Origin: Sycon ciliatum
Lineage: Eukaryota; Porifera; Calcarea; Leucosolenida; Sycettidae
Length of the DNA: 64,000 nt
Direction of reading: 5' to 3'
NCBI RefSeq assembly: GCF_964019385.1
Contig: NC_088655.1
Span: 24,252,576 to 24,316,575 of the forward strand
Both the position numbers and the translations under genes were made by a program. Under the pieces are notes generated by a model. That model was not told the origin of the DNA, did not search any database, and was given only the letters and a program-made list of their open reading frames with translations. Positions 405 to 47,493 of the stretch are shown in pieces (the stretch's first letter is position 1; each line of letters begins with the position of its first letter).

Positions 405-17026
<16,622 letters not shown>

Positions 17027-19984: not shown

Positions 19985-19991
19985 TACTCCA

Positions 19992-20054
19992 TAGCTCCGT
20001 GGTTAGAGCATGACTGGCCTCAAAATGTCAAGCGTAGGTCCCTGGTTCGAGTCC
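19992..20054 (+). mobile_element. tRNA-derived SINE head (block A)
   Basis: It has a pol III A box (TAGCTCCGTGG, 19992-20002) and B box (GGTTCGAGTCC, 20044-20054) at tRNA spacing. The anticodon arm is too irregular for a functional tRNA, so it is a SINE or pseudo-tRNA. The same unit opens block B. Confidence 0.65.
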
Positions 20055-20172
20055 TGCCTCCTGGTGGTGACAGACAGACAGGCAATAGTTTTCAGACTTT
20101 TCCCTTTTCCATTCCCTGAACTTTTGAACGATAGCGAATGTGATTATGTCCCTGGTTTGAGCCCTGGGCCAC

Positions 20173-20365
20173 TAGGCACTGGCGGATAATGCTCGAAAAG
20201 GTGGCACATTCTGCTCGAAAAGCAGTGAAATAATATTGGCAGAACCATACAAACCTTATGGCGGGCAATTCCTCGAATTCTGCTCCATTTCTTTACCCAC
20301 ATACCAAAAATGCATGAAACCTACCAGAAAAAGTACCGAATTCTGCCAATTTTTCTGCCGGCATT
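20173..20365. mobile_element. MITE with GCGGATAATGC termini, copy 1 (block A)
   Basis: Terminal inverted repeats GGCGGATAATGC and GGCATTATCCGC bound about 190 bp. Its interior is an inverted, diverged match to 21412-21808. It carries about one and a half units of the 30-bp repeat that is amplified there. Confidence 0.68.
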
Positions 20366-20553
20366 ATCCGCATAGGCCCCTGGTGCCCCAGTGGTCGTGA
20401 CAGTCATGTTTTTCTTCAGATTGTTTCCCTTTTCTCTCCCTCACTTTTTTATTGGAGTAGATAGTCACTACAGTCCGTTTCAAAACTATAGACACGTACC
20501 TAGGCAAAAACCGTTATGCCAGCATCTACATTTTGTATACCACATAAAATCTG

Positions 20554-20846
20554 AAGACATCCAAGAAGAAGATTGCCTGATGAGTCCAGCGGGGACGAAA
20601 CGTACGTCGCAATCGAGCTATGTCGTTGCTGTGTCATCATCTATGTGCCATGCGCTACTTGATGTACCAGCCTGCTATGCCGGATACCGCCAGCCATGCA
20701 TCGACCAGGCGCCAGGCGCGAACTGATGGTGGTGGTGGTGAGAAGGAGAGCTCTGTGCCAGAACTTTGCAGCCTAGAGAGCGTGTGTGGGCAGGCGTGTG
20801 TTTACCGCCATATTGCCAGGTGTGTCTTTACCACCATATTTATCAA
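20554..20846 (+). mobile_element. hammerhead-ribozyme-bearing non-autonomous retroelement
   Basis: 293 bp flanked by the 13-bp direct repeat CACATAAAATCTG (20541-20553 and 20847-20859). That sequence occurs once in block B (42037-42049) with no insertion. The 5' end carries a full hammerhead ribozyme; the 3' end is TTTACCACCATATTTATCAA. There is no poly(A) tail and no open frame with protein features. The structure resembles metazoan retrozymes or ribozyme-carrying SINE/Penelope-derived units, but it is present as a single monomer. A 3' fragment of the family is at 47257-47315. Confidence 0.88.
20556..20624 (+). ncRNA. type I hammerhead self-cleaving ribozyme
   Basis: The core is CTGATGA (20577-20583), stem II GTCC/GGAC (20584-20587, 20593-20596) with loop AGCGG, then GAAA (20597-20600), short stem III ACGTACGT, and cleavage triplet GTC ending at 20608. 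Stem I pairs GATTGC (20571-20576) with GCAATC (20609-20614). After an internal loop, GACAT (20556-20560) pairs with ATGTC (20620-20624). All invariant core residues are present. The internal loop in stem I is where natural hammerheads make the loop-loop contact with stem II. Confidence 0.93.
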
Positions 20847-21411
20847 CACATAAAATCTGTGCTCACTTTGTGCATAATTTTTTCCAAGTATTAGTTGGGC
20901 GTCTGTTATCCAATCGTTTAGAAACTATATGAGAGTAATTGTGGAGCGGACCTGAGCAATATTCCCGGAAAACTATTCTCAAAACGTTCCAGCCAAATTT
21001 GAAATATTTCAAAAACACTGCGCGTCTATAGTTTTCAAATGGACTGTAGATGCATGTACATGTATATTGTACACCATGATCAAGGCTGACGTTTCAGTGA
21101 TGGTTCGGTGGTACTGTCTCCACCTTGCCCTTGACCTAGCCCTTTTACAGCGAGACCTGTTGCATGCTTCGCACTCTCAAGTCACGTGAATATTTCTATC
21201 CTTGTCTTTTGGTGAGAGCTTGGGCAATCCACTTTAACTTATCCAAGCAAGAAGGAAGCAATGCCTGTTCACGCTGGTGAAGTAAAATAAAATAGACCAT
21301 GCAACCAACCAAACCTTGATCTGGGTTTGCACGTGCACCACTGAACCGGTCTGAACAACGTCGTCACTCGTCAGGGTTTTGCTGGCCTGCTACATCTACA
21401 TGTACCCCTTG

Positions 21412-21808
21412 GCGGATAACAATGCGGACAGAAAAATTGGCCGAACTTGGTACTTTCTCTGGTATGTTTCGTGCATGTTTGGTCTGTGGATGAAGAAATG
21501 GAGCAGAATTCGAGGAGGTGCCTGTCATAAGCCTTGATAAGGTTTGAATGGTTCTGCCAATTTCACCACTTTTCGAGCAGAATCTGCCAATTTCACTACT
21601 TTTCGAGCAGAATCCGCCAATTTCACTACTTTTCGAACAGAATCTGCCAAGTTCACCGCTTTTCGAGCAGAATCCGCCAATTTCACTACTTTTCGAGCAG
21701 AATCCGCCAATTTCACTACTTTTCGAGCAGAATCCGCCAATTTCACTACTTTTCGAACAGAATCTGCCAAGTTCACCGCTTTTCGAGCAGAATATGCCAA
21801 TATCCGCC
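21412..21808. mobile_element. MITE with GGCGGATA termini, copy 2 carrying an expanded array (block A)
   Basis: It starts GGCGGATAACAATGCGG and ends near CAATATCCGCC. It is an inverted relative of 20173-20365, but its interior has grown into eight 30-bp units. Confidence 0.66.
21551..21790. repeat. 30-bp tandem array, 8 units (block A)
   Basis: Units of type CTGCCAATTTCACTACTTTT plus CGAGCAGAAT end at 21580, 21610 and so on to 21790 at an exact 30-bp period. Variant units (GTTCACCGCT, GAACAG) are ordered differently from block B, indicating conversion or unequal exchange. Period 30 keeps frames open, which creates false open frames on both strands. Confidence 0.92.
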
Positions 21809-24020
21809 GAGGTCTACATGTACAGTGCCTGCATCTTTAAAACTATTGCGTCATGCAATCTCTATTCGGCGTATTCTTCTTCATAACCTGCCGCATGCCG
21901 ACGGGGATTTCCTCGACTTAGGCTAAGCCCTGTGGAGAATTTATGAATACTGGGAAACTCCGAGAAGGCGTACCCCTATGGGGCAGCAGAATATTTTTAA
22001 CTAATGACATTGTAGTGTCCGATGGACCGGGTCCATTACTTCATCAGTGTACAGTATTGTTAGTTCTGTTTGTGTGTTCCACTTGGTTGGTTGGTAGGTT
22101 GGTTGGTTGCTCTGTCTATCTTTATTCGCACAATAAACGGGAACTAGGCCCAATGATATAACGGCGAATGGATGAGCAGAATTTAGAAAAGAAAGGAGAA
22201 AATTACGAAAAAAAAAGTGTCTGACAGTGGAGTCAAGGGAGTATCAGGGGTGACAGGGTGGTCGAGGAGAGCTAGGGGGCGGGCTAGTCTGAGCAACAAT
22301 AATTTATGTTAAGCAACTATAATACTTATGCTAAACTTTTTCTGCACTTCACGAAGTCATTTTGTGTGAGACAAGGCCTAATCACTGGTATCCGCATTGG
22401 AGACTTGGTATGGATGGAGTTGTTGCTGTTGTTGTTGTTGTGGTTGTCTACTTACTTTTGATTCTCCAAGGGCAAACGGATGCTTATCAATATCATGGGA
22501 TCGGGAGTCGGGATAGAGAGAAAACAGAGGGGGGGGGGGGGGGGGGGTAGATAGGAAGAGATGTAAGAAAGGGACGTCACGTGTGTCAGTGAACGGGCGG
22601 GGGGGGGGGGCTACGTGGTGAAAAAGAGTGCTGGCCTAGCTAACGTAACTCGTTAGCCAGCTGGTAGACCTCTACATGGTCTGGCTGCTGACCAAAACGA
22701 GGACGAAACGACCTGATGAGCTCAGGACAGTCGCCAGACCGGATTTTTGGCAAGGGTCGGTTGGGCCATGCATGGGACACACGTGACCTACATGTACTTA
22801 TTATGTGTCTTTCATTCATTTTTTATTTTTGTCAGCGCTCATATCATGTCATTTTAATGAATGGACTTGTAGGATTCGATCGTGCAGCAAGCACCGCGCT
22901 GCGAGTTTGGAGTCGATCGTGGCTACTGCGCTAGGCATTGTGGCTGTGATCTAACTTCTAAGTCACAGTAAGTGTTCCACTGTGTTGTGATCGACGTGCT
23001 ACAGTATACAGAGCTATACAGACGCTACGGGCGGGGCTGTTTGGCACGGGTATGCCTGGCTAGCTAGCTAGCTAGCTGGGTCGATGAATTGTAGTATTTC
23101 TTGCAACGTGGCGGATATACCGTTCCACTAATCTATATCAAACTACAGGTAAGCTTTGGAAGAGGTTCAATGCTTCATATGTCAAACCATCCTGCTCAGG
23201 CGGTCTTGCGCTTTACAGCGCTTGACCATCATGGATCTTTCTCATTGTATAAATTTAATCCAGAATATTTGGTATCAATTTTATGACGTCACTTTTATAA
23301 TTATTTATTATTATTATTATTATTATTATACGCATTCCCGCGTTGAAGTGTAGCAGCAGTATGCTGCGTCCACAGCTTCGCTTATGCAGAATGACTTGGG
23401 TGAGAGGAGAGGGGAGAGAAAGCAACAAGGCAACCAACATCTATGAAATAGGTCACAATAACATGAAGAGAACCAACTTACATATGCATGATTGCACAAG
23501 AATGGAGACGACAAATGGCTATAATCATTGTGCCACAAAACCGGTACACAGGAGATCTGTCGACAATGTAACGAAACATAAAACTCAGTTACTCAATACA
23601 TGTTCCACTAAATTACAAGAGAACAACGCTACAACATTAGAATTGCCGCTAAATTATCGCAAGTGTAGAGAACGAGTCCAATACAAATGAAAACCATGAA
23701 CAGACTGTCCCGAAGTTATTTTGGGAACAAATAATTGTACTACATGTACTTGCTGATACTGACGCTGACGGAACACGAATTTGAGTTGAATACTCACGAA
23801 GTCTTGTACATGTACATCATTATGCGCCGGTGTTGTGGAGTAAGCAGGTACGTCAGTCACCAATCCAGCCTCAGCTCCGCGCTTGCTGCAGCAGAATGTT
23901 GCCCACGTTTGCTTTGCCTCCTCACGGATAGACGAGTTTTATAATAGCCGTACAAAAACATTTTCATAATTCACAGCAATACTGTCCTGGAAATGCTTAT
24001 AAGTTTCCAGTGTGGCACAC

Positions 24021-24021
<1 letters not shown>

Positions 24022-24062
<41 letters not shown>

Positions 24063-24066
24063 AAAC

Positions 24067-24113
<47 letters not shown>
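24022..24113. repeat. (CA)n microsatellite (block A)
   Basis: A CACACA tract interrupted by TACACAAACCTA. The block B equivalent (48452-48579) is longer. Confidence 0.94.
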
Positions 24114-24116
<3 letters not shown>

Positions 24117-24481
24117 TGATCAGGTTCAAAAAATTTAAAAAAATTGTCTCACACTGCTGCATACTTAGTTGTCATTCAAAAAATTCGAAAATCTGTTGAC
24201 TCACGCTCGTATGCTTGTGCACATTTGGAAATCCCAATGAAATCATTCGTATAACCTCTGTAATACATGCATATCTGCTGCTACACCAGGTTTTTTCCAT
24301 ATTAGGAGGCTCCACTACAGCCAATTCAGCATCTCTTAAAATCAACCTACGGTGGGAAATCCGTTGCCAGGAGCGTACTCCGTAGTCTCCTCGTGGACTC
24401 AAATCCGGTGAACTGCTGACGTTCACGTGTGCCAACCGTGGCCTGTCGCAAGCAGCAGCAGCAGCGGCAGCACCGGGGGAA

Positions 24482-26892
24482 ATGGATCGTGCACACGAGG
24501 GCATTCTGCGACGACTGCGCATGGACCTGCGGAAGAGCCTGGCAGTGGACGACCACCTGCTCGACCACCTGTACTGCAAGCGCATCATCACCGAGGCCGA
24601 GAAGCTAGATATCAAGGCCAAGGAGAGCGATGGCGGTGGTGGTGGTGGCAGGCCGGTATGCGGTAGGGAGCAGGTGAGTCAGCAGCTCTGTGCTTAGGGG
24701 TGTAGGGCATTGCAGTACGGTGAAACCTGCCCTAAGACGACCGCTCTGAAGGGGCTTTCGAAACCAGGTCTCTGTTGCCAGGTGCAATTGGCTGGAATTA
24801 GCATCCCTTGGTGCTGGTTGCAGTGGTAGTCAGGGAGAGGTTGTTTCTCTATTCGAGTGGTCGCCTTGACAGTTTTTACTGCACTTGAGTGATTGTACAT
24901 GAGTGGACTGGGGCAGGGGGGGGGGGGGGGGTAGGCAGCAGTTCATTTGTATCTGATTGCGGGGAGGGGGGGGGGGGGGTTCCGTTTAAAAGCAAAATGT
25001 TGGTTGCGGGGGGAGGGGGGGGGGGTTGAGCAGGGCAGAAAAGCATTATCTGGTTGGGTGGGGTGGGGATATAGTGAAGCAGAGTGTTTGTATCGTGTTT
25101 CTTTTGCGTATATGTTCTCCACGGCAAATCCCCTCAACCACACCACTCATTATGCCCTTACCTACAGGTCCGCCAACGTCTGTAATTTCCTTTGAAAGAA
25201 TAATATATGGTAGAATGAAATACAGTACTGCCGGGCGCCGAAGAACGGACCTCCGAAGAACGGCCAGGCTAGATTTTCTTAAGAATGGTCTTCGCTGCAT
25301 TTTTTTGCAGATAATTGTAAGGACGGAAACCGTAATGTAACACTATTGTACACTCAGATGTTTAACTCTGCATAAATGTACATGTATGCCTGTACCATCG
25401 AATAAGAACGAAACTGCTGTGTTCGCTAAAACTAGGAACACTCTAGGCTATAACCCTGACCCCCAGTTCTTCGGCGCCCGACAGTACTGTAGCAATAAAA
25501 TTGAATAAATATTGCAGAATACAGTCGTCCCTCTCTAATCCGGCACTTGTTTATCCGGAACCCTTGCCAACCGGCGCACTTTCTGACGAAACCGATATTT
25601 TTCGTTCAATTCCTACATCTTAATCCGGCACTTGAATTCCGCCTCCGGCAGTGACTTTTTGAAACGAATCGCTCAAACTGCACGTAGTTTGATTTCATAA
25701 TCCGGCAGTCCGACTGTGCGTGTGTGTGTGCAAGAGTACGTATACATGTGAACATGTTCTCTGTTTTACTTTATCACTGTGTATATTCCTGGAGAAAGTT
25801 GAGAATATAAAGCCGTGCACCAAATACTGGAGTCGACACGGAAAAACCCTGCGTTTTGACGTATGATACATGCATGCAATTGGGTAGGGCCGGGTCAGAG
25901 GGCAGGATTTCTTAATCCAGCACCCTCGTTAATCCAGCAGAAAATGCCGTAGCAAAAGGTGCCGGATTAGAGAGGGACGACTGTATGTCCTGTCATCTGA
26001 CTCTGATGTCATGATTCCAATATCTCCTCTGCTATGACTCTGTCCCATTGCCCCATATCACCAGGCGGAAATTATCCTGCAGCTGTTGCCGTCGCGCGGT
26101 CGCAGTGCCTTTGCCGTCTTCCATGACGCGCTCCAGCACTCCGCGCTCCGCTCCAATCACGAGCTGGCGGCCCGACTGCGCTCGGCCGAGCAGAAGGAGC
26201 TGGGCGGCAAGGACGTGACGTGCTTTGCTGCGCCCGTCGAGGAGACAGCCGGCAGCCGCACCCGGACAGGAGTAGCGGAGACTGGAGACAGCAGCAGCTT
26301 TGACAGAAGTAACAGCTCTGGCTGGGCCAGTCGACCGTCCAGCATGGATGAAACTGACGGCAGTTGTTCCGGTAATAGTTTGTTTGTTAAGAAAGTGTCT
26401 GCTCCGAACGGTCGGAGCTTGCGCTTCCTGCCGACTGATTTGACACTTGGCTGATTCACGGCTGGGTCTGGAGCACACGAGAATCCCAGCGTTCCGAGCA
26501 GAAACATTCTTCACCAATTAGCGCCGATGTCGCAACATCTTAGTTTATTGATTGTTTTGTATGAATACAGAAGATGTGTTTCAAGCATGGCTTGTTGGGA
26601 ATGCACTGAGTACAGATATGCAATGAGGTTACGATAAGCTGCTACGTGTATATAGCACAGGCCAAGCCCCCCCCCCCACACACACACACACAAACAACAC
26701 CACCACCACCACCATCCCACATCCTCATTCTCTCTTTTTCGCTCGCTCGCTCTCTCTCGCTCTCTCTATCTATCTATCTATCTATCTCTATCTCTCCCTC
26801 TCTCTCCTCTCTATCAATCTCCCTCTCACTCTCTCTCTCCCTCTCTATCTCTCTATCTATCTATCTATCTTCTCTCTCTCTCTCTCTTTCTT

Positions 26893-26953
<61 letters not shown>

Positions 26954-27290
26954 TTTGCTACATTCCAACGCAGGCATGAGGCACAATCCGTGGCACGACG
27001 ATCGCTTTCGCAAGCTGATGGTCTGGCTGGTCAAAAGCATGGAGCCGGCCGAGGCACGCCTGGTCTGCTTCGGCGAGGGGCTTCTCTCTGACACGGACAT
27101 GCTCGAGTTGCAGGGCAAGGAGATCCAGGGCAGCATCAGGCATAACATGCTCTTGATGGAACGCTTGCGCATTGGCGGACCAGCGAGCTATGACAAGTTT
27201 CTCGCCGCCGTCAAGGAGATGGGGCCCCAGCTTGCGGCGAAGTATGACTCACTGGCCGAACTTAAGCACCCCGCCGTGACCTTCCGCTAG
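24482..27290 (+). CDS. tandem-CARD (death-fold) adaptor-like protein, block A copy
   Basis: Three exons, 24482-24673, 26065-26371 and 26974-27290 (stop TAG), give about 271 residues. Junctions are GTGAGT/CACCAG (phase 0) and GTAATA/AACGCAG (phase 1), all GT-AG. The start has a good context (GAAATGG). Residues 1 to about 115 form a CARD split by intron 1 (AHEGILRRLRMDL, LLDHLYCKRIITEAE, then ILQLLPSRGRSAF and FHDALQHS), as in CRADD or caspase-9 type CARDs. A Ser/Thr/Gly linker follows. Exon 3 encodes a second helical death-fold unit with CARD-like pattern (FGEGLLSDTDMLELQ, SYDKFLAAVKEMG). CARDs mediate homotypic assembly in apoptotic or innate signalling. No caspase, kinase or NACHT domain is present, so an adaptor role is inferred. 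It converges on the RapGEF gene. Confidence 0.8.
24713..24881. mobile_element. short MITE in CARD intron 1 (block A)
   Basis: The ends CAGTACGGTGAAACCTGCC and the reverse complement of CAGTAAAAACTGTC are imperfect inverted repeats continuing into AAGACGACC/AAGGCGACC, about 169 bp. Confidence 0.6.
25223..25489. mobile_element. TA-target MITE (CAGTACTGCCGGGCGCCGAAGAAC), block A
   Basis: 267 bp with about 24-bp inverted termini flanked by TA (25221, 25490). It is in CARD intron 1; the block B copy at 49685-49937 is at the same place. Confidence 0.84.
25522..25983. mobile_element. pogo/Tigger-like MITE (CAGTCGTCCCTCTCTAATCC), block A
   Basis: 462 bp with about 25-bp inverted termini flanked by TA. 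The interior repeats AATCCGGCA. It sits next to the previous MITE inside the same intron. Confidence 0.86.
26730..26950. repeat. (CT)n / (CTAT)n tract before the CARD exon 3 acceptor (block A)
   Basis: About 220 bp of CTCTCT with CTAT blocks ends 23 bp before the AG at 26973. It acts as an exceptionally long polypyrimidine tract. Confidence 0.93.
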
Positions 27291-27654
27291 GTCAGTTCTC
27301 AATCATGAGGCCGTGGCTTGGACGATTCCAAGAGATTGACTAAAGACGCATATTTTTATCAGCAGAGTTATTTTTTATGGCGGCTCCTGACCTAAGCAGC
27401 TGCTTCCAGTGCAAGCTTAATAGCTTGTGGATGCATACAAGGATGTGAGCGTGAACTTGGGTGTGAGCGTGGGTGTAGGTGAGAATTTTTTGGATTCAAA
27501 CTGTCCAGGTCGATATTAGTAGAACCCTTGATGAGTTGATCCTATACACGCTGTGTATAACCACGGCAGTCTCCCAAACTGTCTGAGTGCTATTTTGAGA
27601 CTTATTATGGAGATTTATTACCCCCCACAGCCATTTATTATTTCTCACGTGCAC

Positions 27655-27920
27655 ACACACACACACCTTTGGACCTTTGGAAAGCCCATCGCCGAAGGCG
27701 ATGATAGCTATTAGGCGAGGCAGTAGTTCTTGTGTCGGGATAAATCATTCGGACGGCGAAAGTCGCGGCCGCAGACACAGACGAACACTCTTGGTTGGGG
27801 CTGGCTTGGTGGCTTCCGACGGCTACGTTCGCGCCAGTCCCTCTAGTCCTGAGCAAGGTGGTACCATTGCGCCTCCGGGATACCGGTCGCACGCAGGTCT
27901 GAAGCTGCCACATCTCTCCA

Positions 27921-27925
<5 letters not shown>
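27655..27925 (-). mobile_element. LINE 3' relic with zinc-finger-like tail (block A)
   Basis: The minus strand reads a C-terminal LINE ORF2-like segment: a GIPEAQWYHLAQD step, one stop codon, RDWRERSR, then VCGRDFRRPNDLSRHK, similar to the cysteine-histidine finger at the end of many invertebrate LINE proteins. A short CATCGCC/GGCGATG hairpin and a GT repeat follow. The block B copy (52135-52405) lacks the stop. Confidence 0.6.
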
Positions 27926-27956
<31 letters not shown>

Positions 27957-28067
27957 AAGCGACCACCACCACCACCACTGCTATTATGCCATTTTTCCAG
28001 AGAAGTATGATCATTCCACTTGCCATCACAAACACACTTCAAGTTTCTTGGATTGACATGCACTGTC

Positions 28068-28124
28068 TGCACAATCTGGATGATGTCACTGTCAACTTGA
28101 CAGTGACATCATCCAGATTGTGCA
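28068..28124. repeat. perfect 28-bp palindrome with 1-bp centre
   Basis: Arms 28068-28095 and 28097-28124 (beginning TGCACAATCTGGATGATG) are exact reverse complements. In block B the corresponding right arm has mismatches. Confidence 0.93.
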
Positions 28125-28244
28125 ACTTTACACAATGTCATTGATTTGAAACTTTCCTTGCTCTGCCCTGCCTTGGGGCTGGTTTGGCAGCATGTAACTT
28201 AAGAGTTGTGTATGTTACAACCTCCGCTCCGCCCTTTATATACA

Positions 28245-28395
28245 TGTACACACGCACACGTGCACACACACGAATACACAAACACACACACACACACACA
28301 CATATGCATACACGAACACACACACACACATATGCATACACGAACACACACACACAAATACAGACACGTGCACACACACACACACACACACATCA
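28245..28395. repeat. (CA)n-rich microsatellite (block A)
   Basis: A CACACA tract with CATATGCATACACGAA interspersed units. Open frames here are repeat translation. Confidence 0.93.
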
Positions 28396-28399
28396 CCGG

Positions 28400-29904
28400 C
28401 AGGCATAGAGTAGCAGTGAGCGAACACAGCAAGTCAGACAACTAGGTATAATAATGTGCACCCCGCACACACGTCTTGCACACTACCATCATCGTTACAT
28501 ACGTTCTTCGGTACCCCATATACGGGAATAATAGCTATACATGTAGTCGTACATATAGTGCGGACGGTGGCCAAAAATTGATCAGATGAGAATGAAAGAG
28601 AACATATTTTTATTTATACCTATTTTCCTTTTCATCTCCCGGAAAAAAACTAATCAATTCATTGCTAGCCTGGTGAATATGAGTGCGCCCTCTATATAAC
28701 ACAGAGATAAAATTGAATTCATAGATGATATGGGTTGTCAGGTTCGCCTCCAGCATCTAGCATCAAAGTCAACAGAATGCTGTTGTCGACAAGACTTGAT
28801 AAGTTCTCCAAAAATGTGTGGACATTGATTGCACAGCTCAGCAGCAGTAATTGCAGCTCTGGCAACTCTGCATGGTGGCGTGGCCAGTTTTCTGGTGAAC
28901 TGAGCAGACAGTGCAGGCTAGGCTAAGCGAGAGAATGTCCCTCACATAGCAGGTCATGCTAGGCAGTGAGGGAACGTCCCTGCGCTTGGCAGGGAGCGAC
29001 GCAGGCACAGGCTGCCGTGTGCACGCAGTGTGCTCATGGCAGTATCGGCACTGCCTCGATGCAGGAGACCTGGCCTAGCTGGTGCATGCATGCATGTGAA
29101 TGGGGCTAGCTGTAGCAAGCATGGTGGCAGCGGCGGTCAAGTGAAGGCTGGGTCAACGCGTGTCAAAGCTTAGCTGAAGAAAACTCAACGTGAAATCAAG
29201 CTGCGGGCTCAAGCGAGGATAAAGTCATATGCACAGCCATAGTCAAAGAAAAACACAGACACGTTTGACTGTGTCGTAAAAACGAGAAAAGAGAAAAGTT
29301 GGAAAACCGCACCTAAGCCGTGTGGCATGGGGCCGCCAACACATCAGCAGTGCGAGTCCTGATTGGGCTTAGTGCTGTTGTGAACGTCCACAGGATATTG
29401 TGTCATGCCGTTTCTGCACTCGTGCACAGGCTCGCATACACATGCGGGCACACACACACAGGATGTGAACTCCTACAGTACAGGGGATGGATTACCGCTG
29501 TGTGCTACACATGCCCACGTGTGTGTCGGCTAGGTGCTGCATGTCGGTGCATGTTGGCTAGCTTTGGTTGTGCTTTCTTCCACCATATACATCAGCTACG
29601 ACTGCCAGACATCAGTGAACGAGAAGCGGAAGCAGGAGCAACAGTGGCGGCAGGTGTGCGGAGTGGCGCGCTCTCCGTTGATTGCTGGGGGATAAATCCA
29701 ACGCACAGGTACATGGGCTTGTCACATCACCATGGTGAGGGATAGGGTTGCCCCGGCAACAAACACGGCAGCGAACATGGTCGACTGGGACTGCGGACGG
29801 TTGCCACGGAAACATACACGGAGACCCTGACTCTGTTGTGCAAATCCCAATGGTCGTATAACGCTGACCGTCAGAGCCGCGAACACACATCGTGCATGCT
29901 GCTA
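28400..29904. other. intergenic, convergent gene ends (block A)
   Basis: Between the CARD and RapGEF stop codons. It should contain the RapGEF 3' UTR (minus) and the end of the CARD 3' UTR. Short open frames at 28735-28926 and 29320-29745 show no domain and are not retained in frame in block B at the second site. Confidence 0.5.
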
Positions 29905-30655
29905 TCACCGGATCTCCAGCGTGGAACCGGAGGTGTTTCGCACGCTCGGCGGGGGCTCTGCTTTCTGGGCCATGGCGTCCAGCTCCGCCTCGTCGCTGAT
30001 GATGTTCAGGTTCTTGAGGTAGTGCTCCACGCGGCGCATGGAGAACCACTGCTCGTAGATCTTACGTACGTCGCGGTCCGTCAGCTTGTCTTTCGGGTCG
30101 CGCAGCATCCGCGTGACGTCGTAGCTGCTGGCGTGGAAGCCGTTGATGTGGCGGATCTCCCGCGCCATCATGCGAAGCTTCTCGAAGTTGATGAGACCGT
30201 CGATGCGGTCGTCGTTGCCCAGGTAGATGAAGGTCAGGTCCTTGGTGACGACGGGGAAGAAGGGGACGATGGGAGCGGACACGCTGCTCACCATTGAGCG
30301 GTAGGTGAGCATGTTGCGAGACGGATTCATCAAGATCTGCATCTCCTCAATGCTCTGTTGAAGGGATGGGGGAAAACATGTGTAGATAGAGACGTAGGCA
30401 TGTGCACAGACAGACAGATAGATAGACATGCACACACATACACATACATACACAGACACGTGCACACACAAGCATACACACAGACACACATGTGAGCAGC
30501 CAGAAGCATGCAACCATGTCCGGAAAAGTACATAGAGTGCAATTAGATGAAGACCTCTTCATCTCTCCCCGATGCCCCCCCCCCCCCTCTCTTTATCTTT
30601 CTCTCCTCTGTCTCTCCCTCTTACATAATATACGCATGTGCACGTAGACGTGCGC

Positions 30656-30713
<58 letters not shown>

Positions 30714-33700
30714 ACTGACCATTTGACGCCCATCGCTGGAGGCGATGCTACAGCAGAAGCCATAGCAGCTTGTGCTGGGATTGCACCATTCAACAGCTTG
30801 CAAGGCTGAAGAATTGACCACCACTATTCAGGCTGGTCTACACCACACAGCTATGAAGTGGCTTTTTCTGGCCAGTGAATCCCTACACACACACTCACAC
30901 ACACACAACCGTCCACAGTGGACAAAAATCTGTCCCTCACACCGGGCTCTGTGAGCAACCTGCTTATAACTACACATATAACGGCTAAAACCAGGCATAC
31001 GCACGGGTAGTCAAACGGGTGCCCTTAGTACCTGGGACATAGAGAATCATCCACACTAACTTCACACAGATGTGTCCGCAGATCGAGTAACTGCACTCAT
31101 TACCTCCTAAACAGAGCTCCAAGTTGCGGGTACCTCCGTCTACCATGCACCCTAATGTAGTGAAATGTTGCTACTCTTTTTGCCTATTTTCGGTGGAAAT
31201 AATGACGGCATATGCCAGAGCCCTTTCCTATCAAAACGTATAAGATGTAGGGTTCGGACATTTCCGAGCTATGGGCACTGCCCGATCCAGGATCGCCCAG
31301 ATAAGAGAGATACGAGTGTGCTGGAACAATAATGTGCCTGACATGGCTGGTTTTCTATTCCGCATTTTCGGAGTACAGTCAACTTCGCTTATAACGACAC
31401 TCGGCGGGGCATCAGAAAAGTGTCCTTATTTGCGAAGTGTCGTTATACCCGAAGTCTCATTATATGTGTCACAGTTGGATGGGACTTTGCTCTGGGCATG
31501 AAATATATGTCGTTATTCGCGAATTGTCGTTATATCCGCAGTCGTTATTAGCGAAGTTGACTGTATAACCTGAACTGTTAACACAGCGGCAGATCCAGCG
31601 ATCTCTACAGGGGGGGGGGGGGGGGTCCAGTATAGTCAACACTGAATAGCTGATACGTACATGGACACGCATATGGCTGCTAGTACAGTACAGCCAGACC
31701 TCGCATAACCGCACACATCCGTTTCCCACAAAAAATCCGGACAGGCGAGGGAACCGGATTATCGAACTCACATACTGTATGCATGCATGACATATGCTGT
31801 AAATCGGTAACCAACGATTTTCTTCCGGACGGCGAGGGATCCGGATAAAAGAGGACCGGATAAGCGAGGTCTGACTGTGGTAGATTGACGAAATTTAGGG
31901 GGTTCTGTGGAACCCCTCCTGGATCCACCCCTGGAACACCAGTTATTCACCCAACAAAAGTCAGTTTGCCTTATACTACAACTTGCAGTACAAGTACGAT
32001 GGTCAAATTTTGCGGTGATAAACAGGGCATATGTCTGTGTTTTCCGACGAGCATCAAGGTGCGGCATTTACACCAGTGTGGCTTATACTCGGGGTTAATA
32101 CGGCAACTCACCTTGATATCGCGCGCGCCAAGCTTCTCCCAGGTCTGGCGCAGTCGCGTGACGGCCCCGTACGACAGGCCGCTGGTGATGGCGAACATGG
32201 TGTTGAAGTTGCGCAGCGACCGGCACAGCTTGGCCACCTTCAGGAAAAACTTGATCTTGCGCACGCGCTGCTGCATCGACGGCTCGCTGACGATCTCGGT
32301 GACCACCCAGAACATCTCGTTGTTGGTGGTGCTGGAGAAACGCTGAAAGTCGCTCTGCTCCTTTCCCCCGGGATGATCCTTGCCACCACTGCCGCTGCCA
32401 TTACCGTTGAGATCCCAGATGTAGTTGACGTACTCGGCCCCGCTGATGCGGCGGAACGTCAGGAAGCTCTGTAGCGTGACCACGCGTGCTACATCTCGTG
32501 TGTCCAGGCTCAGGAGATCGCAGGCGCCGTCGTGCATGATGTCCGTCACCAGGCTGCTGCCGTGCACCAGGTTCGTCGTCGTCTTGTTCGACTTCAGGTA
32601 GAAGCGCGACATTGGGCGCAGCTCCGCCGGCAGGTTGGCAAACGCGTCCGGTAGGCGTGTCTGCTGCACCACGCCCTGCGGGCTGACGGTGATGCGGCAC
32701 AGCGAGAACGACTCCTCCGAGTCGGGCATCTCGAACTGGCGCACGCCCATGCGCACCAGGTCCAGCGCCGTTGTCGCCGCGCCAACCGTCAGGTAGCGGT
32801 GCTGGTGATCGTGCCGGTACAGCTTGATCACGCTCAGCGGCAACAGGCTAGACGGCGACGTGGGTCTGGAGGGACGATTCGCCGACGCTGCCACCACGGA
32901 CGCCGAAGAAGACCCTCCACCACCGCCAGCGGGACTGCTGTTCATGGGCACGGAGAGAGAGGTCTTGCGCGCGTGCGGCGCCGATGCGACGCGCATGCTT
33001 GCCGAGCGCATGTTCGACGTGGACGCGTAGCGCTTGGCAAAGCCGTGCAGGCGCCGACCGAACAGCGTGGAGGAGCGCGGAGAGCTGTCCGCAGCCCCGC
33101 CGACGCCCCCACCACCCACGGCGTTCAGAGCGCCGGACGAAGACGAGAGGTGCCCGCTGATGCCGTTCTGGTGCGCGTGCTGCTGGGGTGCCAGGCGTGA
33201 CCTGCCCGCCACATGCTGTTGGTCATGAGGAGCGTCTGAATCGCCGCCAGCATGCTCTACAAGTGGGAAAGTCCCCTTACTCTGCACGGCTATTGTCAGC
33301 AGCCGCAGCTCGCCCAGGAAGTTCGTCTCCTCCAGCTGGCGGCGGAACGTGCGTAGAAAGCCGATCATCTCCACCGAGCCGTTGAAGTCCTCGATGTGAT
33401 TGTTCGCCCAGAGCAGCACCACGCGGGCCACGCGGTCGCGCAGCTCGGCGTGCAGGAACAGCTGCTCGAGGAGCTCAGCGAGCTCCGTTGCCGTCATGAA
33501 CGTGCGATACGTCAGGAGGAAGTCCTCGGCGTACGCTGGGTCGTAGTCTCCCACGACCAGGTGCGCCACGAGCTTGGCCCGCGCGCCACGCACCACCACC
33601 TGGCCCCACTCCGTCTTGCCCGTCTTGCGATACTCCGTGACCATCACCAGCGCGCCGTCCTCCACCACCTCCACGGTGGCCTGCTCCGACTGCGCAAACA

Positions 33701-34445
33701 CGTCGTGGAACTGCTCCGCGGCGACGCTCAGCAGCAGCGTTTCCGTGCCGCGCGTCACCAGCGAGCCCGCCTGAATGACCTTCTTCTTGTGGGCGCGCGA
33801 CACGCCAAACGCCTCGCCCAGGTGGAAGACGGCTGGCTCGTAGGACTCGCGTACGAGCTCCACCGCGCCGCCGAACACCACCCACCAGTGGTCCACCTCT
33901 TCGCCGGAGCGCACCAGCACCGTGCGTGCTCGCTCGTACGTCTGCAGGCGCATGAGCGCGCACAGCTTCTCCCGCACGGGCAGCGTCATGTTGGCGAACG
34001 CCGGTAGGTGCTGGATATAGTCCATGATCACGTCCAGGTCGTCGGCGCTGCGCTTCTCCGGCGCTTTCGACAGCAGGTCCTGAATGGACGCAAAGCTATC
34101 GCTGTACTGGGAGGACACATCGGACGTATCGTCGCCATCCTCTGGTTCAGAATCCACGCAGACCTCTTCCAGGCCCTCCAGCTCCTCAAGGATGTCCAGG
34201 TCTTCCAGGCTGCCCATCTCGCAGATGTTGATCTCTGGCGTTTCCAGGAACTTTCCCGATAGGCACCCGAGCGACGAGGAGGCCTGGCCCAACTGGGCTT
34301 CCAGCAGTTGGTTCCGCACGCCTGGTGCCGATCTCGACAGGTCTCCGTTCATCGCAGCCGCTGCCGTCGCTCCGTTGTGGTGCCCACTCCCGGAGCCCGC
34401 TGCCCCAGCGCTGCCAGAAGGGTAAGTGCTGCGAGAATGATCCAT
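29905..34445 (-). CDS. RAPGEF2-like: RapGEF2/6-type guanine nucleotide exchange factor, block A copy
   Basis: Two coding exons, 34445-32112 and 30354-29905, joined AAG|GTGAGT to CAACAG|AGC (phase 0), give 927 residues. Order: Gly/Ser/Ala-rich start, acidic stretch (76-110), cyclic-nucleotide-binding-like domain (about 133-260), RasGEF N-terminal/REM domain (about 280-385, YAEDFLLTYRTFM), low-complexity Ser/Gly/His linker (395-535), RA domain (about 535-620) and RasGEF catalytic domain (about 650-880, including VVTEIVSEPSMQQR, FNTMFAITSGLS, MNPSRNM and IPFFP-like VPFFPVVTKDLTFI). Such proteins load GTP on Rap at membranes and junctions. The PDZ domain normally between REM and RA is missing. 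The cNBD keeps Gly-Glu but not the Arg-x-Ala of cAMP-binding cassettes. It is very GC-rich compared with flanks, which makes many long shadow frames on the plus strand. Confidence 0.9.
30657..30712. repeat. (CA)n microsatellite (block A)
   Basis: An uninterrupted CA tract just before a LINE-tail-like segment, in the RapGEF intron. Confidence 0.94.
30713..30890 (-). mobile_element. LINE/SINE tail segment present only in block A
   Basis: It contains the hairpin CATCGC-TGGAG-GCGATG and resembles 850-900 and the end of 27655-27925. Block B lacks it: CA repeats run straight into ACCGTCCACAGTGG. It is probably a polymorphic retroelement fragment. Confidence 0.5.
31376..31563. mobile_element. pogo-like MITE (CAGTCAACTTCGCTTATAACGAC), block A
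   Basis: 188 bp, TA-flanked (31374, 31564), near-perfect inverted ends, in the RapGEF intron. Confidence 0.86.
31691..31877. mobile_element. pogo/Tigger-like MITE (CAGCCAGACCTCGC), block A
   Basis: About 187 bp, ends CAGCCAGACCTCGC and GCGAGGTCTGACTG, in the RapGEF intron 127 bp from the previous MITE. Confidence 0.82.
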
Positions 34446-36027
34446 GTGCGGGCCAACAGCGGGCCACGCGGGTGGGTACGAAGCTCGGGAACCGAGGCAG
34501 TTAGGTTTGCGCCAAGCGCCAACGACAAGAAACGATCATGCACACGCTACGCAAGCGAAGTCGCCTCCGTTGGTGCATTCGGTATCAGCCCTACTGCTAG
34601 CGAGCTTCCCTACGTCGTTTGGACGACTCGCCCATTTCACCTCCACTACTCTACTCACCGTTAGCCGTCCTCCTCGACTTTTACGTTAGCGCAGGGACGC
34701 CACCAAACCGCTACTCACGCTAGATCTTTACTCCAGCCTAGTGCAGAGATGATTGTGATGTCGATAATTCACCAGCGAACTCACCGACCTCGAGAGCGGT
34801 AGCCAGCTAGCTAAAAGGCCGCCGACACGAAAACGTACTATCGCGGCGAGCCTTGGCGCACAACTGACATGCAGGCGTGTGGTGCAAATATTTACTTAGC
34901 AAAAACAGTATCATACACCGCAGCTCGGCAGCTTTGGTTGTGTGTGGGAATCCTCTTCCACTCAGCTTCTCCAAACATCCTTATTTTCTTTGAACAGCAG
35001 ACTCATAAAGTCATACAGTCATACAGAGCATGATGCAGTGCCTAGTGGAAACGCATACAGATTACAGTAGACATGACATGTGTAACTCACAGCCAGATAG
35101 CGTGCGCCAAGCCCAAACCAAAGCCAAGATCTCAACTCAAGTCTACCAAGCTGCAAGACAGTCAATCAGCTGCACTCGCATAACCACTAACCAGGGCATG
35201 ATTACTGTACTGGCTACTGCTACTGCACTGGCTACTGCTGCTAGAGATAGTCACAGAGCTACAGTACAGAGCTACAGTACAGAGCTACAGTACAGAGCTA
35301 CATACTACATGTAGTAGTACATGACCCTGATGAGTGATGACTGATTGTAGGCAATGTAGCACGGCTTCAAACTGCGGTGCAGGCCATTTTACACCACAGA
35401 CTTACCTAGTATGTACAGTACAGTCAGTATGTCAGTACTGTAGATCTACTAGTACGGTTTGTGATGCGCGGCCGAGGATGCGCTCGTTGAGTGCTTGATT
35501 GGACCGTTCTTTCTCGCTCTGGTCTTATCTGGAGTGCTCGCTGCTCAGTCAGACTCAGAGTCAAAGCTGCTGTTAGCATACGGAACACTGTCACACTGTC
35601 AGACCACTCCAACTCCGACCTGCTCATTATACCACATGACTGTATCATTATTATTATTATCAACTAATTACTATTACTTAGCTGCTGTTCTTCTGTTTCG
35701 CTTCGACCGTACTGAGAATGTTCGATCATTCGTCGAATCCTAACCCACAGATTCGACTATCTTTGTACCAGTAGTAGTACACTCTACCATGCTCGACTGC
35801 AGTGCTGGTCAATGAAATCCGATCCAGTGTGTCAGCTTTGCGCCCTGCCTGCACCAGTGAAAATCCCATAATTACTGCACAACGCTCTGCGCGGACTTGG
35901 CTCGCAAGTCACAGGATCAGATTTCATCTAGCAGCATGTTCATGTACAAGACGATTGTACTACTGTCGTGGACATGGAAATCCGGTCGCACGTCTAGCGG
36001 CCCCGTTGCGCTGGCCATGCAGCCGTG
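34446..36027. other. RapGEF 5' flank (block A), no gene seen
   Basis: Probably the 5' UTR and promoter of the minus-strand gene. It includes a short tandem repeat GAGCTACAGTACA near 35255-35300 and a TTATTA run at 35644. No open frame with protein features. Confidence 0.5.
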
Positions 36028-38626: not shown

Positions 38627-39171
38627 TGCCTCCTGGTGGTGACAGACAGACAGGCAATATTTTCAGACTTTTCCCTTTTCCATTCCCTGAACTTTTGAAC
38701 GATAGCGAATGTGATTATGTCCCTGGTTTGAGCCCTGGGCCACTAGGCACTGGCGGATAATGCTCGAAAAGGTGGCACATTCTGCTCGAAAAGCAGTGAA
38801 ATAATATTGGCAGAACCATACAAACCTTATGGCGAGCAATTCCTCGAATTCTGCTCCATTTCTTTATCCACATACCAAACATGCATGAAACCTACCAGAA
38901 AAAGTACCGAATTCTGCCAATTTTTCTGCCGGCATTATCCGCATAGGCCCCTGGTGCCCCAGTGGTCGTGACAGTCATGTTTTTCTTCAGATTGTTTCCC
39001 TTTTATCTCCCTCACTTTTTTTATTGGAGTAGAAAAGAGCTGGTTCCCAAGTTCCGTGCTCTGAGAAGCAAAGGCGTCAAATGCCACCTTCCACGTGATG
39101 CCATTACACTGAACGGTAAACACTTGACATCCCAGGACATTGCCCGCCTCCTGACCACACAGAGCCAATAG

Positions 39172-40458
39172 GAAACAGCCCGGGCATCCCCAACACCACA
39201 CAAGAGATCTGCAACTGCCACGGCTACCACTACTGCACCGTCTACCAGCACGATCAGTATTGCTCATTTATCACCAGCATCAACAGCTACAACTCGAAAG
39301 CTAAGTATTGCTCATATTAATGTATGTAGTCTTTATAATAAATTGCATGAGATCAAATCACTTCTACATGCTCATAATATTGATGTATTGACCCTCACTG
39401 AAACATGGTTGACCGACACTGTTCCTGATAACTGTATAAACATACCGAACTACACCGTGCACAGACAGGACAGGCAGACTGGGAGAGGAGGCGGTGTCTG
39501 CATGTATGTTAGAGATGAGTATGATAATCGGAGATTACACCACTCCTCAGACGTGGAAGTGTTTGTTGTGCAGATAAATGTATGCCAACAACCATTGACC
39601 ATATTCGGCGTTTACCGAGCGCCAGCGGTACCTATAAGCTTCTGGTCGATCCTCACTGACTTGATCGACGACTCGCTGAGACGTGCACCAGCCTCCACCT
39701 GCTCTATTGTTCTAGGAGATTTCAATGTGAATGTACAAGATCCTAATCATACACACTACTCTCATCTACAAACACTCTGTAGTGATTTCGACCTCCGAAA
39801 TGTTGTCACCTCACCAACCAGATATCCAAGCGGAACAACGATAGATCTAGTATTAGTACCCAACTCCACTTTCACCACACCACCTGCAGTACTCAGCGGG
39901 ACTGATATTGTCTTCAGCAGTTCGACTGTAATTGCGTGTGATATTTCAGACCATAATCTGGTTCATGTTCATTTCACCGTCCATTCTGATGCTCAGCCAC
40001 ACCAGACGAGTAGACAAATACAGATACGTAAGCCACCAGTTCGGTCTCTGAATATCATAGATTTCCAAGGAACAGCCACTGAGAAAATGTTCAACCTGTC
40101 CCACCACGCTAGTGCCTCATCGCCAGAGTCTCTAAACACACGCATTGTACATTGGCAGACTGCAGTTCAGGGTGCACTAGACGAGCATTGCCCTGTTAAA
40201 CGTGTGAATATCAAGAAAGCATACGCTTCAGCCCCATGGATGGATGATGAACTCCGCCTTCTATTGTTTAAGCGCAAACGGGCGCACCGTGCAATGCTCA
40301 GACACCCAGACCAGTCAGATCTCGTACAACAGTTTAGAGCACTTCGCAGGCAATGCAAATACCTAACTAGAAAGAAACGGTCGACATACTTCCAAGAACA
40401 ACTTGTCTGCCACAGAGGCCACCCAAGAGAACAGTGGGGTATTATAAACAATCGATGA
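39172..40458 (+). pseudogene. LINE ORF2 endonuclease part
   Basis: An open frame with APE endonuclease landmarks: LTETWL, GGGVCMYVRD, FGVYRAP, VLGDFNVN, TIDLVLV and SDHNLVHVHF, followed by the linker before the reverse transcriptase. It stops at 40458. About 100 residues usually found before the RT fingers are missing, so an internal deletion joins HPREQWGIINNR to the RT region in another frame. Confidence 0.85.
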
Positions 40459-40459
40459 G

Positions 40460-41918
40460 ATCGCTCCCTCACTATCCAAGTTGTTATCTGAATCTCTGAC
40501 GTCTGGTGAATTCCCAGCTCCGTACAAGTCAGCCCATGTTCGCCCCATCCACAAGCGCGGTGATAAGTCGGTCTCCTCCAACTACAGACCAATATCACTG
40601 CTCCCCCATATGTCAAAGTTACTTGAGCACATAGTGCATGATCAACTCATACGCTACATCCAGAATGCACCACCCGCACTGCAACATCTCCCTGCAGAGC
40701 AATTCGCCTACCGCAGAGGCCACTCCTGCGAAGACTTGCTGACTTGTGTTACCAACGATTGGATGCTCGCCTTGGACAAGGGTGACTACGTAGCGGCTGC
40801 CTTCCTTGATATGTCAAAGGCCTTTGACACTGTCAACCACAACATGTTACTTCAAGAACTACTTGAGATTGGTATTGGCGGAGTCGCTCTGCAATGGTTT
40901 CACAGCTACCTTACAAACAGACAACAGTGCGTGGTCACTAAGACTCAACAAGGGCAACCATACACAAGCAACAGAGGCGTTCCACAAGGCTCTGTTTTAG
41001 GGCCGTTTCTATTTAACTTGTCCGTGAGGAAACTCCCCGCTGTGCCCAAACACTGCAAAGCCCGTCAATACGCAGATGATGTGTCTTTATACAGGGCGGG
41101 GAAGAATGTCCAGAACTTATGCAAAGACCTCACAGAGGACATCATCAAAGTAAAGGAATTCTTGGCAACGAGAGGTCTTATGTTGAGCTCCTCGAAAACC
41201 CAGCTTGTTGTGTTCAGGCCAAAGTCGAAACCTCTCGACCCCGATGTCAACGTTCAGATTGAAGATGTCACCATCACCCCTAGTGCACACGTGAAATACC
41301 TCGGTATAGTTCTTGACGAACATCTCCTTTGGAGTTCACATTGCACAATTAGAACGTAAAATAGGCTGTAAGTTAGGAATGTTTAGAAAGGTCCGAGACC
41401 ATTTAACGATCGATGCTAAGAGGGCTTTCTACATCTGTTCCATTCAGTCCATACTTGAGTATGGGTCTAATTCCTTTGCTCACTGCCTTTCTGCCTCCCT
41501 CCATGACCGTGTTGTCCGACTTAGTAATAGAGCGCTGCGTATTGTATTTTGCATGCCCCGCCTATCTGATGTCTCCCTTGTTCTTTCCCGCTACCATATC
41601 ATTCCCTTGTCTGTCAGGTGCCGATTCAAGCTGTACGTTCTAACGTACCGTGCGCTTCATGATCTGGCTAGTGTCTTTGTTGCTAACTGTTTCTGTCTCC
41701 GCTCTAATTCTACCTGCACTAGTTCTCGCACCCGCTCTCAAGTGTCCTCTTCCCTTGCTCTTCCGACAGCCAAACGTCGCTATGGTTTATTTTCTGTCAC
41801 TTTCCTTGGCTCTGACCGCTGGAATGCCCTCCCAGCGGAGGTCCGCTCAAGTTCTTCCTTGCATACCTTCCGTAATTCTGTTCTTCATTTTTTAGGGTAC
41901 CCTGTCAAAAGGCCTTAG
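40460..41918 (+). pseudogene. LINE ORF2 reverse transcriptase part, frameshifted
   Basis: The frame to 41359 has the RT blocks KSAHVRPIHKRGD, NYRPISLLP, AFDTVNHNMLL, GVPQGSVLGPFLFN and the catalytic YADD (about 41069-41080). Near 41313-41359 the reading passes to another frame, which ends at 41918 with the thumb/C-terminal region (GSDRWNALPAEVR). With frame breaks this copy cannot make a full protein. Confidence 0.85.
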
Positions 41919-41975
41919 GCCTGTGGGGATTGCCCTATCAAAAATTTAATAATAATAATAATAATATAGTCACTA

Positions 41976-42236
41976 CAGTCCGTTTCAAAACTATAGACAC
42001 GTACCTAGGCAAAAACCGTTATGCCAGCATCTATACCACATAAAATCTGTGATCACTTTGTGCATAATTTTTTCCAAATTGGGCGTCTGTTATCCAATCG
42101 TTTAGAAACTACATGTATATGAGAGTAATTGTGGAGCGGACCTGAGCAATATTCCCGGAAAACTATTCTCAAAACGTTCCAGCCAAATTTGAAAGATTTC
42201 AAAAACACTACGCGTCTATAGTTTTGAAATGGACTG
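41976..42236. mobile_element. TA-target MITE (CAGTCCGTTTCAAAACTATAGAC), block B empty of ribozyme element
   Basis: 261 bp with matching ends flanked by TA. It holds the single CACATAAAATCTG (42037-42049) that is duplicated around the ribozyme element in block A. Confidence 0.84.
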
Positions 42237-42262
42237 TAGATGCATGTACATGTATGTACATG

Positions 42263-42976
42263 TGTAGTATCTCTAGCTCTATCAGTATCACTGAACAGTC
42301 ATCACACAACCTCCTGGTATTACTAGCTACTTGTAGTTCACATGTACATGCTAAGTGCTTCTCCCAGCAACCACTTACTTTGAAGTAGGACTACTAGACA
42401 AACCTGCCTGCAGACCGGTACGGCCTGACCTGTTGCATTCATGCTGTAAATATGCATTACATTGATTCCTGTGTAGTCTGTCCCCCCTCACTGACCCCTT
42501 TTGATCACTTGCGAGATGCCTTCCCATCCAACAGCTTTCTTCCCCGAACCCATGTTATTGATCAGCCCTAGCTCACACACATTCAAATGCCTTTTCCTTA
42601 GATCTTCCAACAGTTGTCTTCCTAGTAATCGTTATGCCCCCTTACCCTGCCTGCCATTCACATTAGTTTCCTCCATACTTTTAGATTGCATTCCTGTTGC
42701 ATAAACCTTGCTCGCCACTTAGGTCCATTCATCCTCCCACACTGTTTCGAGTCCCGTTGTCCTCCTGCTTTCTTTTGCCCTCACTCCCAGCTGCTCTCTC
42801 TCCCTGGCCTATATAACCCGCTGATTCTTCTCAGTTCTTTGTGGAATTGATTTCGAGAGTAAAGAGTTGTGAAGCCTCAGAGCTTGCAAGTTCCTCCGGC
42901 TAGTGCTGCCAGCCTGTTACACTTTCTGTATAAGTCCAAAAGTGCTTCAGACACGAACAGGTTGGCAGACACTACA
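42263..42976 (+). repeat. 5' LTR
   Basis: 714 bp, offset exactly 2,059 bp from the 3' LTR with no difference seen by eye. It contains TATATAACCCGC (about 42810), a plausible promoter TATA region. The 67-residue open frame in each LTR is not a gene. Confidence 0.92.
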
Positions 42977-44307: not shown

Positions 44308-44321
44308 GGAGGAGGGGCGAG
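44308..44321 (+). promoter_or_regulatory. polypurine tract
   Basis: GGAGGAGGGGCGAG lies directly against the 3' LTR start, the expected plus-strand priming site; one C interrupts it. Confidence 0.75.
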
Positions 44322-45035
44322 TGTAGTATCTCTAGCTCTATCAGTATCACTGAACAGTCATCACACAACCTCCTGGTATTACTAGCTACTTGTAGTTCAC
44401 ATGTACATGCTAAGTGCTTCTCCCAGCAACCACTTACTTTGAAGTAGGACTACTAGACAAACCTGCCTGCAGACCGGTACGGCCTGACCTGTTGCATTCA
44501 TGCTGTAAATATGCATTACATTGATTCCTGTGTAGTCTGTCCCCCCTCACTGACCCCTTTTGATCACTTGCGAGATGCCTTCCCATCCAACAGCTTTCTT
44601 CCCCGAACCCATGTTATTGATCAGCCCTAGCTCACACACATTCAAATGCCTTTTCCTTAGATCTTCCAACAGTTGTCTTCCTAGTAATCGTTATGCCCCC
44701 TTACCCTGCCTGCCATTCACATTAGTTTCCTCCATACTTTTAGATTGCATTCCTGTTGCATAAACCTTGCTCGCCACTTAGGTCCATTCATCCTCCCACA
44801 CTGTTTCGAGTCCCGTTGTCCTCCTGCTTTCTTTTGCCCTCACTCCCAGCTGCTCTCTCTCCCTGGCCTATATAACCCGCTGATTCTTCTCAGTTCTTTG
44901 TGGAATTGATTTCGAGAGTAAAGAGTTGTGAAGCCTCAGAGCTTGCAAGTTCCTCCGGCTAGTGCTGCCAGCCTGTTACACTTTCTGTATAAGTCCAAAA
45001 GTGCTTCAGACACGAACAGGTTGGCAGACACTACA
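44322..45035 (+). repeat. 3' LTR
   Basis: 714 bp, same as the 5' LTR, followed by the target repeat CATG at 45036-45039. Confidence 0.92.
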
Positions 45036-45536: not shown

Positions 45537-45776
45537 GTTCTGCCAATTTCACCACTTTTCGAGCAGAATCTGCCAATTTCACTACTTTTCGAGCAGAATC
45601 CGCCAATTTCACTACTTTACGAACAGAATCTGCCAAGTTCACCGCTTTTCGAGCAGAATCCGCCAATTTCACTACTTTTCGAGCAGAATCCGCCAATTTC
45701 ACTACTTTTCGAACAGAATCTGCCAAGTTCACCGCTTTTCGAGCAGAATCTGCCAAGTTCACCGCTTTTCCAGCAG
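45537..45776. repeat. 30-bp tandem array, 8 units (block B)
   Basis: Same unit and unit count as 21551-21790, but variant units are in a different order: two GTTCACCGCT units are adjacent at the end. Confidence 0.91.
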
Positions 45777-47256: not shown

Positions 47257-47315
47257 TTGATAAATATGGTGGTAAAGACACACCTGGCAATATGGCGGTA
47301 AACACACGCCTGCCC
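47257..47315 (-). mobile_element. 3' fragment of the ribozyme retroelement family
   Basis: Its reverse complement is identical over 59 bases to 20788-20846, the 3' end of the ribozyme element. It sits in a short segment absent from block A (near 23260). A 5'-truncated, inverted copy like this is expected from reverse-transcription-based insertion. Confidence 0.85.
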
Positions 47316-47493
47316 AGAATATTTGGTATCAATTTTATAGAAATTTTATGACGTCACTTTTATAATTATTATTATTATACGCATTCCCGCGTTGAAGTGT
47401 AGCAGCAGTATGCTGCGTCCACAGCTTCGCTTATGCAGAATGGCTTGGGTGAGAGGAGAGGGGAGAGAAAGCAACAAGGCAACCAACATCTAT

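Follow-up and report, generated by a model that had tools for sequence, protein, structure and literature searches.

The window, a 64,000-nucleotide stretch of DNA from the calcareous sponge Sycon ciliatum to which all positions refer, contains a mobile element of 293 bp (20554-20846, plus strand). The evidence supports its insertion as a discrete piece. It has a type I hammerhead ribozyme at its 5' end, and it shares its 3' end with a second, truncated insertion. The element is probably the genomic copy of a small, non-autonomous S. ciliatum retroelement which is inserted by target-primed reverse transcription with the enzymes of another element, and whose RNA is cut by the hammerhead and rejoined to a circle.

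The insertion and its unoccupied site

The element is non-coding (the longest stop-free stretch is 87 codons) and is flanked by identical 13-bp repeats. These form the target-site duplication: the 5' copy, CACATAAAATCTG, is at 20541-20553 and the 3' copy at 20847-20859 (both plus strand; 13 of 13 positions identical). The C at 20847 is ambiguous, as it can be assigned either to the element or to the repeat. In the 64-kb window the 13-mer has three plus-strand sites (20541, 20847 and 42037) and none on the minus strand. The third site, at 42037-42049 (plus strand), is an unoccupied paralogous target in block B of a long duplication. Block B reads through a single 13-mer there; both flanks match those of the element, and nothing lies between. 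An earlier note on this DNA had described a 293-bp unit, bounded by 13-bp direct repeats and inserted as a discrete, single piece. The coordinates and repeats are as it claimed, and the single target in block B, with matching flanks on both sides, bears out the mode of insertion. Its description of the element as recently mobile stands only in relative terms: the element differs between the duplicated blocks, and its repeats are identical at 13 of 13 positions.

The GC content of the element is 53.6%, against 49.6% for the window. Self-comparison of the unit found no terminal repeats and no LTR. Ends like those of a DNA transposon were rejected, with no match of more than 18 nt (78%) in the same comparison; close repeats escape this comparison, which missed a 26-nt repeat in the tail. 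Neither a second full-length copy nor a tandem arrangement is found within the 64-kb window, which holds a single unit.

The duplication comprises block A (19985-35356) and block B (38557-59937), with 89.5-98.3% identity by piece. The 293-bp insertion is confined to block A; both blocks carry their own block-specific insertions. Two copies of a RapGEF2-like frame lie within the duplication. One of them (31974-34535, minus strand, 854 codons) matches a S. ciliatum Rap guanine nucleotide exchange factor 2-like protein with 99% identity across 91% of the frame. Among the 37 proteins in the same search, a second Sycon protein reaches 39%, other named species reach at most 40%, and three others reach 46-61%.

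Several other repeats are present in the window. The stretch at 19985-20060 is tRNA-like: its B box, GGTTCGAGTCC at 20044, is perfect, and its A box, at 19992, has two mismatches. The stretch is present in block B too and is possibly a tRNA-derived SINE head; ARAGORN detects no tRNA in it. An inverted repeat pair (20250-20365 and 21421-21536; 116 nt, 84% complementary) brackets the ribozyme element. There are 30-bp tandem arrays of about eight copies at 21553-21801 and 45539-45785, a 23-bp tandem array of about seven copies at 5453-5623, and two direct copies of 715 bp each (42262-42976 and 44321-45035) which are 100% identical.

A complete hammerhead at the 5' end

The hammerhead sits in the first 71 bases of the element. 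Its Rfam match (RF00163; 20571-20614, plus strand; E 3.7e-5) spans the whole 45-position model and scores 35.4 bits, only just above the gathering score of 34. Helix I (20556-20624, plus strand) is in two parts, separated by an internal loop of 10 nt and 5 nt. The outer part pairs 20556-20560 with 20620-20624 (GACAT/ATGTC, 5/5) and the inner part pairs 20571-20576 with 20609-20614 (GATTGC/GCAATC, 6/6), so that all 11 pairs are Watson-Crick. Helix II (20584-20596, plus strand) has four of four pairs, GTCC/GGAC, and the loop AGCGG. Helix III (20600-20607, plus strand) has two of two pairs in sequence, A-U and C-G, and a palindromic GUAC loop. Two pairs capped by a tetraloop are similar to invertebrate hammerheads (PMC7229834). 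All core residues are intact and all 17 helix pairs are Watson-Crick. The invariant residues, two-part stem I and stems II and III that the earlier note had placed at the 5' end are thus recovered by the Rfam match, by a structural descriptor and by the pairing. Self-cleavage is expected between C20608 and G20609 (plus strand) from the hammerhead mechanism.

The descriptor, which comprises the core and three helices, finds one plus-strand site in the window, that of the element, and none on the minus strand. It finds none on either strand of 60 windows simulated with the dinucleotide composition of the real one. A chance motif is ruled out by this result together with an Rfam match above the curated score. 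RF00163 is the sole gathering-level Rfam match in the window, and the 25 matches with E up to 5 include no second hammerhead. The hammerhead pattern has no match in viral and prokaryote genome contigs and the pattern of the element tail has none in viral contigs; these collections are not animal genomes, and the result has little weight.

A second insertion with the same 3' end

A second, 5'-truncated insertion is found at 47256-47316 on the minus strand. It is identical at 61 of 61 positions to 20787-20847, a stretch made up of the element's final 60 bp plus the ambiguous C. This insertion, which is new beyond the earlier note, is in block B and is missing from its block A counterpart (between 23259 and 23260). 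Its flanks are unlike those of the 293-bp copy. Its first three bases (TGG) are also present in the target, so that 57-60 bp are derived from the element. No clear target-site duplication is seen, and the 3' joint has an extra CCAT (the first C is the ambiguous base) and a further 4-base difference. A target-site duplication is therefore clear at one of the two insertions.

The tail common to both insertions (20791-20846, plus strand) consists of a 26-nt repeat in about two copies and a TATCAA end; the tandem repeat at 20791-20840 has a period of 26, 1.9 copies and 87% matches. Both insertions end at the same 3' base, and their 5' ends differ, one being truncated; two insertions are few for calling the 3' end 'fixed'. 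One 3' end with varied 5' ends is the mark of target-primed reverse transcription that stops early, and the two insertions have this pattern. Synthesis of cDNA would start at the fixed 3' end, with its 26-nt repeats and TATCAA. It would have reached the 5' end in the 293-bp copy and halted after about 60 bases at 47256-47316.

Since the element lacks coding capacity (87 codons at most), the enzyme was presumably borrowed. A non-LTR retroelement at about 39034-41965 (plus strand), found only in block B, has endonuclease and reverse transcriptase domains and an (AAT)n 3' end. Its reverse transcriptase segment is 97% identical over 89% to a protein cluster of 21 member sequences, so the family may be recent. 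Considered as the enzyme source, this LINE-type element shares only TATCAA near the 3' end with the 293-bp element, as judged by eye.

The putative RNA template

Type I hammerheads cut on the 3' side of their core. An RNA cut after 20608 would start at 20609 and would be without the ribozyme, because 20554-20608 (with CUGAUGA, helix II and GAAAC) is removed. The earlier note had the ribozyme set the 5' end of the mobile RNA. Such an RNA would give an insertion lacking the ribozyme, and the copy has it; that cleavage sets this end is therefore doubtful. As the element holds both sides of the cut, its template would have been uncleaved, multimeric, or a circle of rejoined ends.

A circle with a fixed 3' start is favoured; its serious rival is a linear template that was not cut. 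In the favoured scheme the hammerhead probably cuts read-through or multimeric transcripts after C20608; the ends would then be joined again, probably through a host ligase, to give a circle with the ribozyme whole. RtcB, a tRNA ligase, closes animal retrozyme RNAs in vitro: more than 80% of the axolotl monomer and about 30% of the mussel one are circularised, as opposed to about 3% and 1%, respectively, in its absence (PMC7229834). A more specific version, less likely than not, is that the circle is copied for exactly one lap from a fixed internal point (TATCAA), stopping at the start; this would give a single permuted monomer with a complete 5' hammerhead, which would otherwise be destroyed by cleavage.

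Predicted folding does not make activity easy. For 20554-20630, thermodynamic folding gives -11.3 kcal/mol for the hammerhead structure and -15.9 for the best fold; the best fold of 20554-20660 is at -25.3 kcal/mol. The predicted probability of helix I depends on the end of the transcript. It is 0.97 at 20626, 0.03 at 20632 and 0.00 at 20640-20660; in longer transcripts it is 0.61 at 20680, 0.42 at 20750 and 0.00 in the full unit. Helix III has a predicted probability of at most 0.03 in all growing transcripts. Folding of the full unit is thus predicted not to favour the ribozyme, which may still act while being transcribed or in a dimer. The modelled RNA has 59% of its bases paired as a linear molecule and 61% as a circle. 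Against 200 dinucleotide shuffles each, its stability has a z of +0.9 when linear (161 of 200 shuffles at least as stable) and +1.0 when circular (167 of 200); predicted self-pairing is not above that of shuffled sequence.

Alternative readings

The serious rival is a SINE-like element with a linear transcript starting at or upstream of 20554. Copying would be confined to uncleaved RNA, with the hammerhead as a passenger or as a control. The single copy, the defined ends and the 5'-truncated relative fit this reading, and so does the predicted masking of the ribozyme in the full unit. SINEs have an internal polymerase III promoter (A and B boxes), usually in a head derived from tRNA, 5S or 7SL RNA. 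In the element, the best strict B box on the plus strand has 4 mismatches of 11, the best loose B box has 3 and the best loose A box has 1; on the minus strand, the strict B box has 3 mismatches, the loose B box has 1 and the long A box has 1. Between 100 and 1000 of 1000 simulated units equal each pattern on each strand, so that no promoter on either strand is better than in simulated sequence, which counts against this reading. ARAGORN finds no tRNA in the element, and there are no other Rfam families at gathering level. A tRNA-derived head or polymerase III promoter is accordingly rejected as no better than chance, and the element is not a plain SINE because it lacks a recognisable promoter of this type. 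The intact core and 17 of 17 helix pairs also suggest that ribozyme activity matters. A precedent for copying unprocessed RNA is the Anolis Penelope-like element, in which hammerhead mutants had no effect on insertion in vitro and the authors favour unprocessed RNA as the dominant substrate (PMC11167929). The hammerhead of that element cut only when the protein of the element was added (PMC11167929). A linear transcript is, on balance, an unlikely source of the 293-bp copy, whereas processing to a circle remains the preferred reading.

That the element is part of a Penelope-like element, left as a solo pseudo-LTR with its hammerhead, is improbable. Such elements do have type I hammerheads, and in the animals examined they are found alongside retrozymes (PMC7229834). 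However, their hammerheads are minimal, without helix III or loop contacts (PMC7761336), whereas the element has, in sequence, a short helix III, and its helix I is in two parts. The nearest reverse transcriptase element also argues against it: Pfam comparison of three of its frames gives endonuclease/exonuclease/phosphatase domains and RVT_1, with one frame unmatched. No GIY-YIG domain is found in these frames at E up to 0.001 (four proteins of the window were scanned in all), so that a Penelope-like element may still lie elsewhere in the window.

Loss of the element from block B, by recombination between 13-bp repeats once present in both blocks, would leave the same single repeat and is indistinguishable from this locus alone, but it is very improbable: the 13-bp sequence is not the element's own, as the second insertion has different flanks, and the alternative is weakened because the 3' piece sits at that second, unrelated site, where it is block A that lacks the insertion.

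Comparison with known hammerhead elements

The relation in kind to retrozymes or SINE-like elements that the earlier note proposed is supported. Its remark that a terminal ribozyme and the absence of tandem copies differ from typical retrozymes also holds, the latter within the 64-kb window. Animal non-LTR retrozymes measure about 170-400 nt; their hammerheads are of type I, and any target-site duplications exceed 4 bp (PMC7229834). The element resembles them in its hammerhead, which is of type I and has a tetraloop on a helix III of 2 bp, in its length, in being non-coding and without an LTR, and in its 13-bp duplication. Unlike them, it is a single unit in the window and not a tandem array (dimers to multimers), and it has a GC content of 53.6% as opposed to below 45-50% (PMC7229834). 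Its predicted pairing (59% linear, 61% circle) is also lower than the more than 70% of retrozyme monomers (PMC4918200). The unit has defined ends and carries the ribozyme right at its 5' end, and the host is a sponge. The element is thus not filed as a plain animal non-LTR retrozyme, since it lacks three features of that group: high self-pairing, a GC content under 50% and, within the window, tandem units.

The schistosome SMalpha and Sjalpha retroposons are similar by description, being short, non-coding, SINE-like and hammerhead-bearing (PMC8490949). The schistosome repeats carry tRNA sequence (PMC4918200), whereas none was found in the element. Nematostella repeats have 15-bp duplications like those of LINEs (PMC4918200). 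Penelope-like elements and Terminons share the type I hammerhead, and an internal start of reverse transcription gives them recurrent 3' ends (PMC11167929, PMC7761336). They differ in being autonomous and coding with minimal hammerheads, and the Penelope-like elements have tandem pseudo-LTRs (PMC11167929, PMC7761336). The element has neither the reverse transcriptase with GIY-YIG endonuclease nor the pseudo-LTRs of Penelope-like elements; it is too short to code for the former and has no end repeats. Plant LTR retrozymes are likewise non-autonomous and hammerhead-bearing, and an unoccupied orthologous site is known in Citrus; unlike the element, they have type III hammerheads, LTRs and 4-bp duplications (PMC4918200). 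Their circles are of 600-800 nt (PMC7229834), compared with 293 bp for the element.

A sponge host

According to a 2017 review, metazoan satellite DNAs with classic type I hammerheads range mostly from cnidarians to lower vertebrates (PMC6155905). A second account has such repeats spread patchily over most phyla of metazoans and does not name sponges (PMC7229834). The word 'sponge' is absent from PMC6155905 and PMC7229834, and its single use in each of PMC4918200 and PMC7761336 is a reference to microRNA sponges. Among the papers listed in a literature search, none reports hammerhead-bearing non-LTR elements in sponges, which does not establish absence from print. Given the spread over most metazoan phyla (PMC7229834), a sponge host may be unsurprising to a specialist.

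If confirmed genome-wide, the family would extend the host range of hammerhead-bearing non-LTR elements to a sponge. A clean single-unit insertion, its unoccupied site and a truncated sister make the choice between copying of circular and of linear RNA testable. One-lap copying, if true, would be a circle-templated, target-primed mode of insertion which yields monomers and not arrays, in a sponge.
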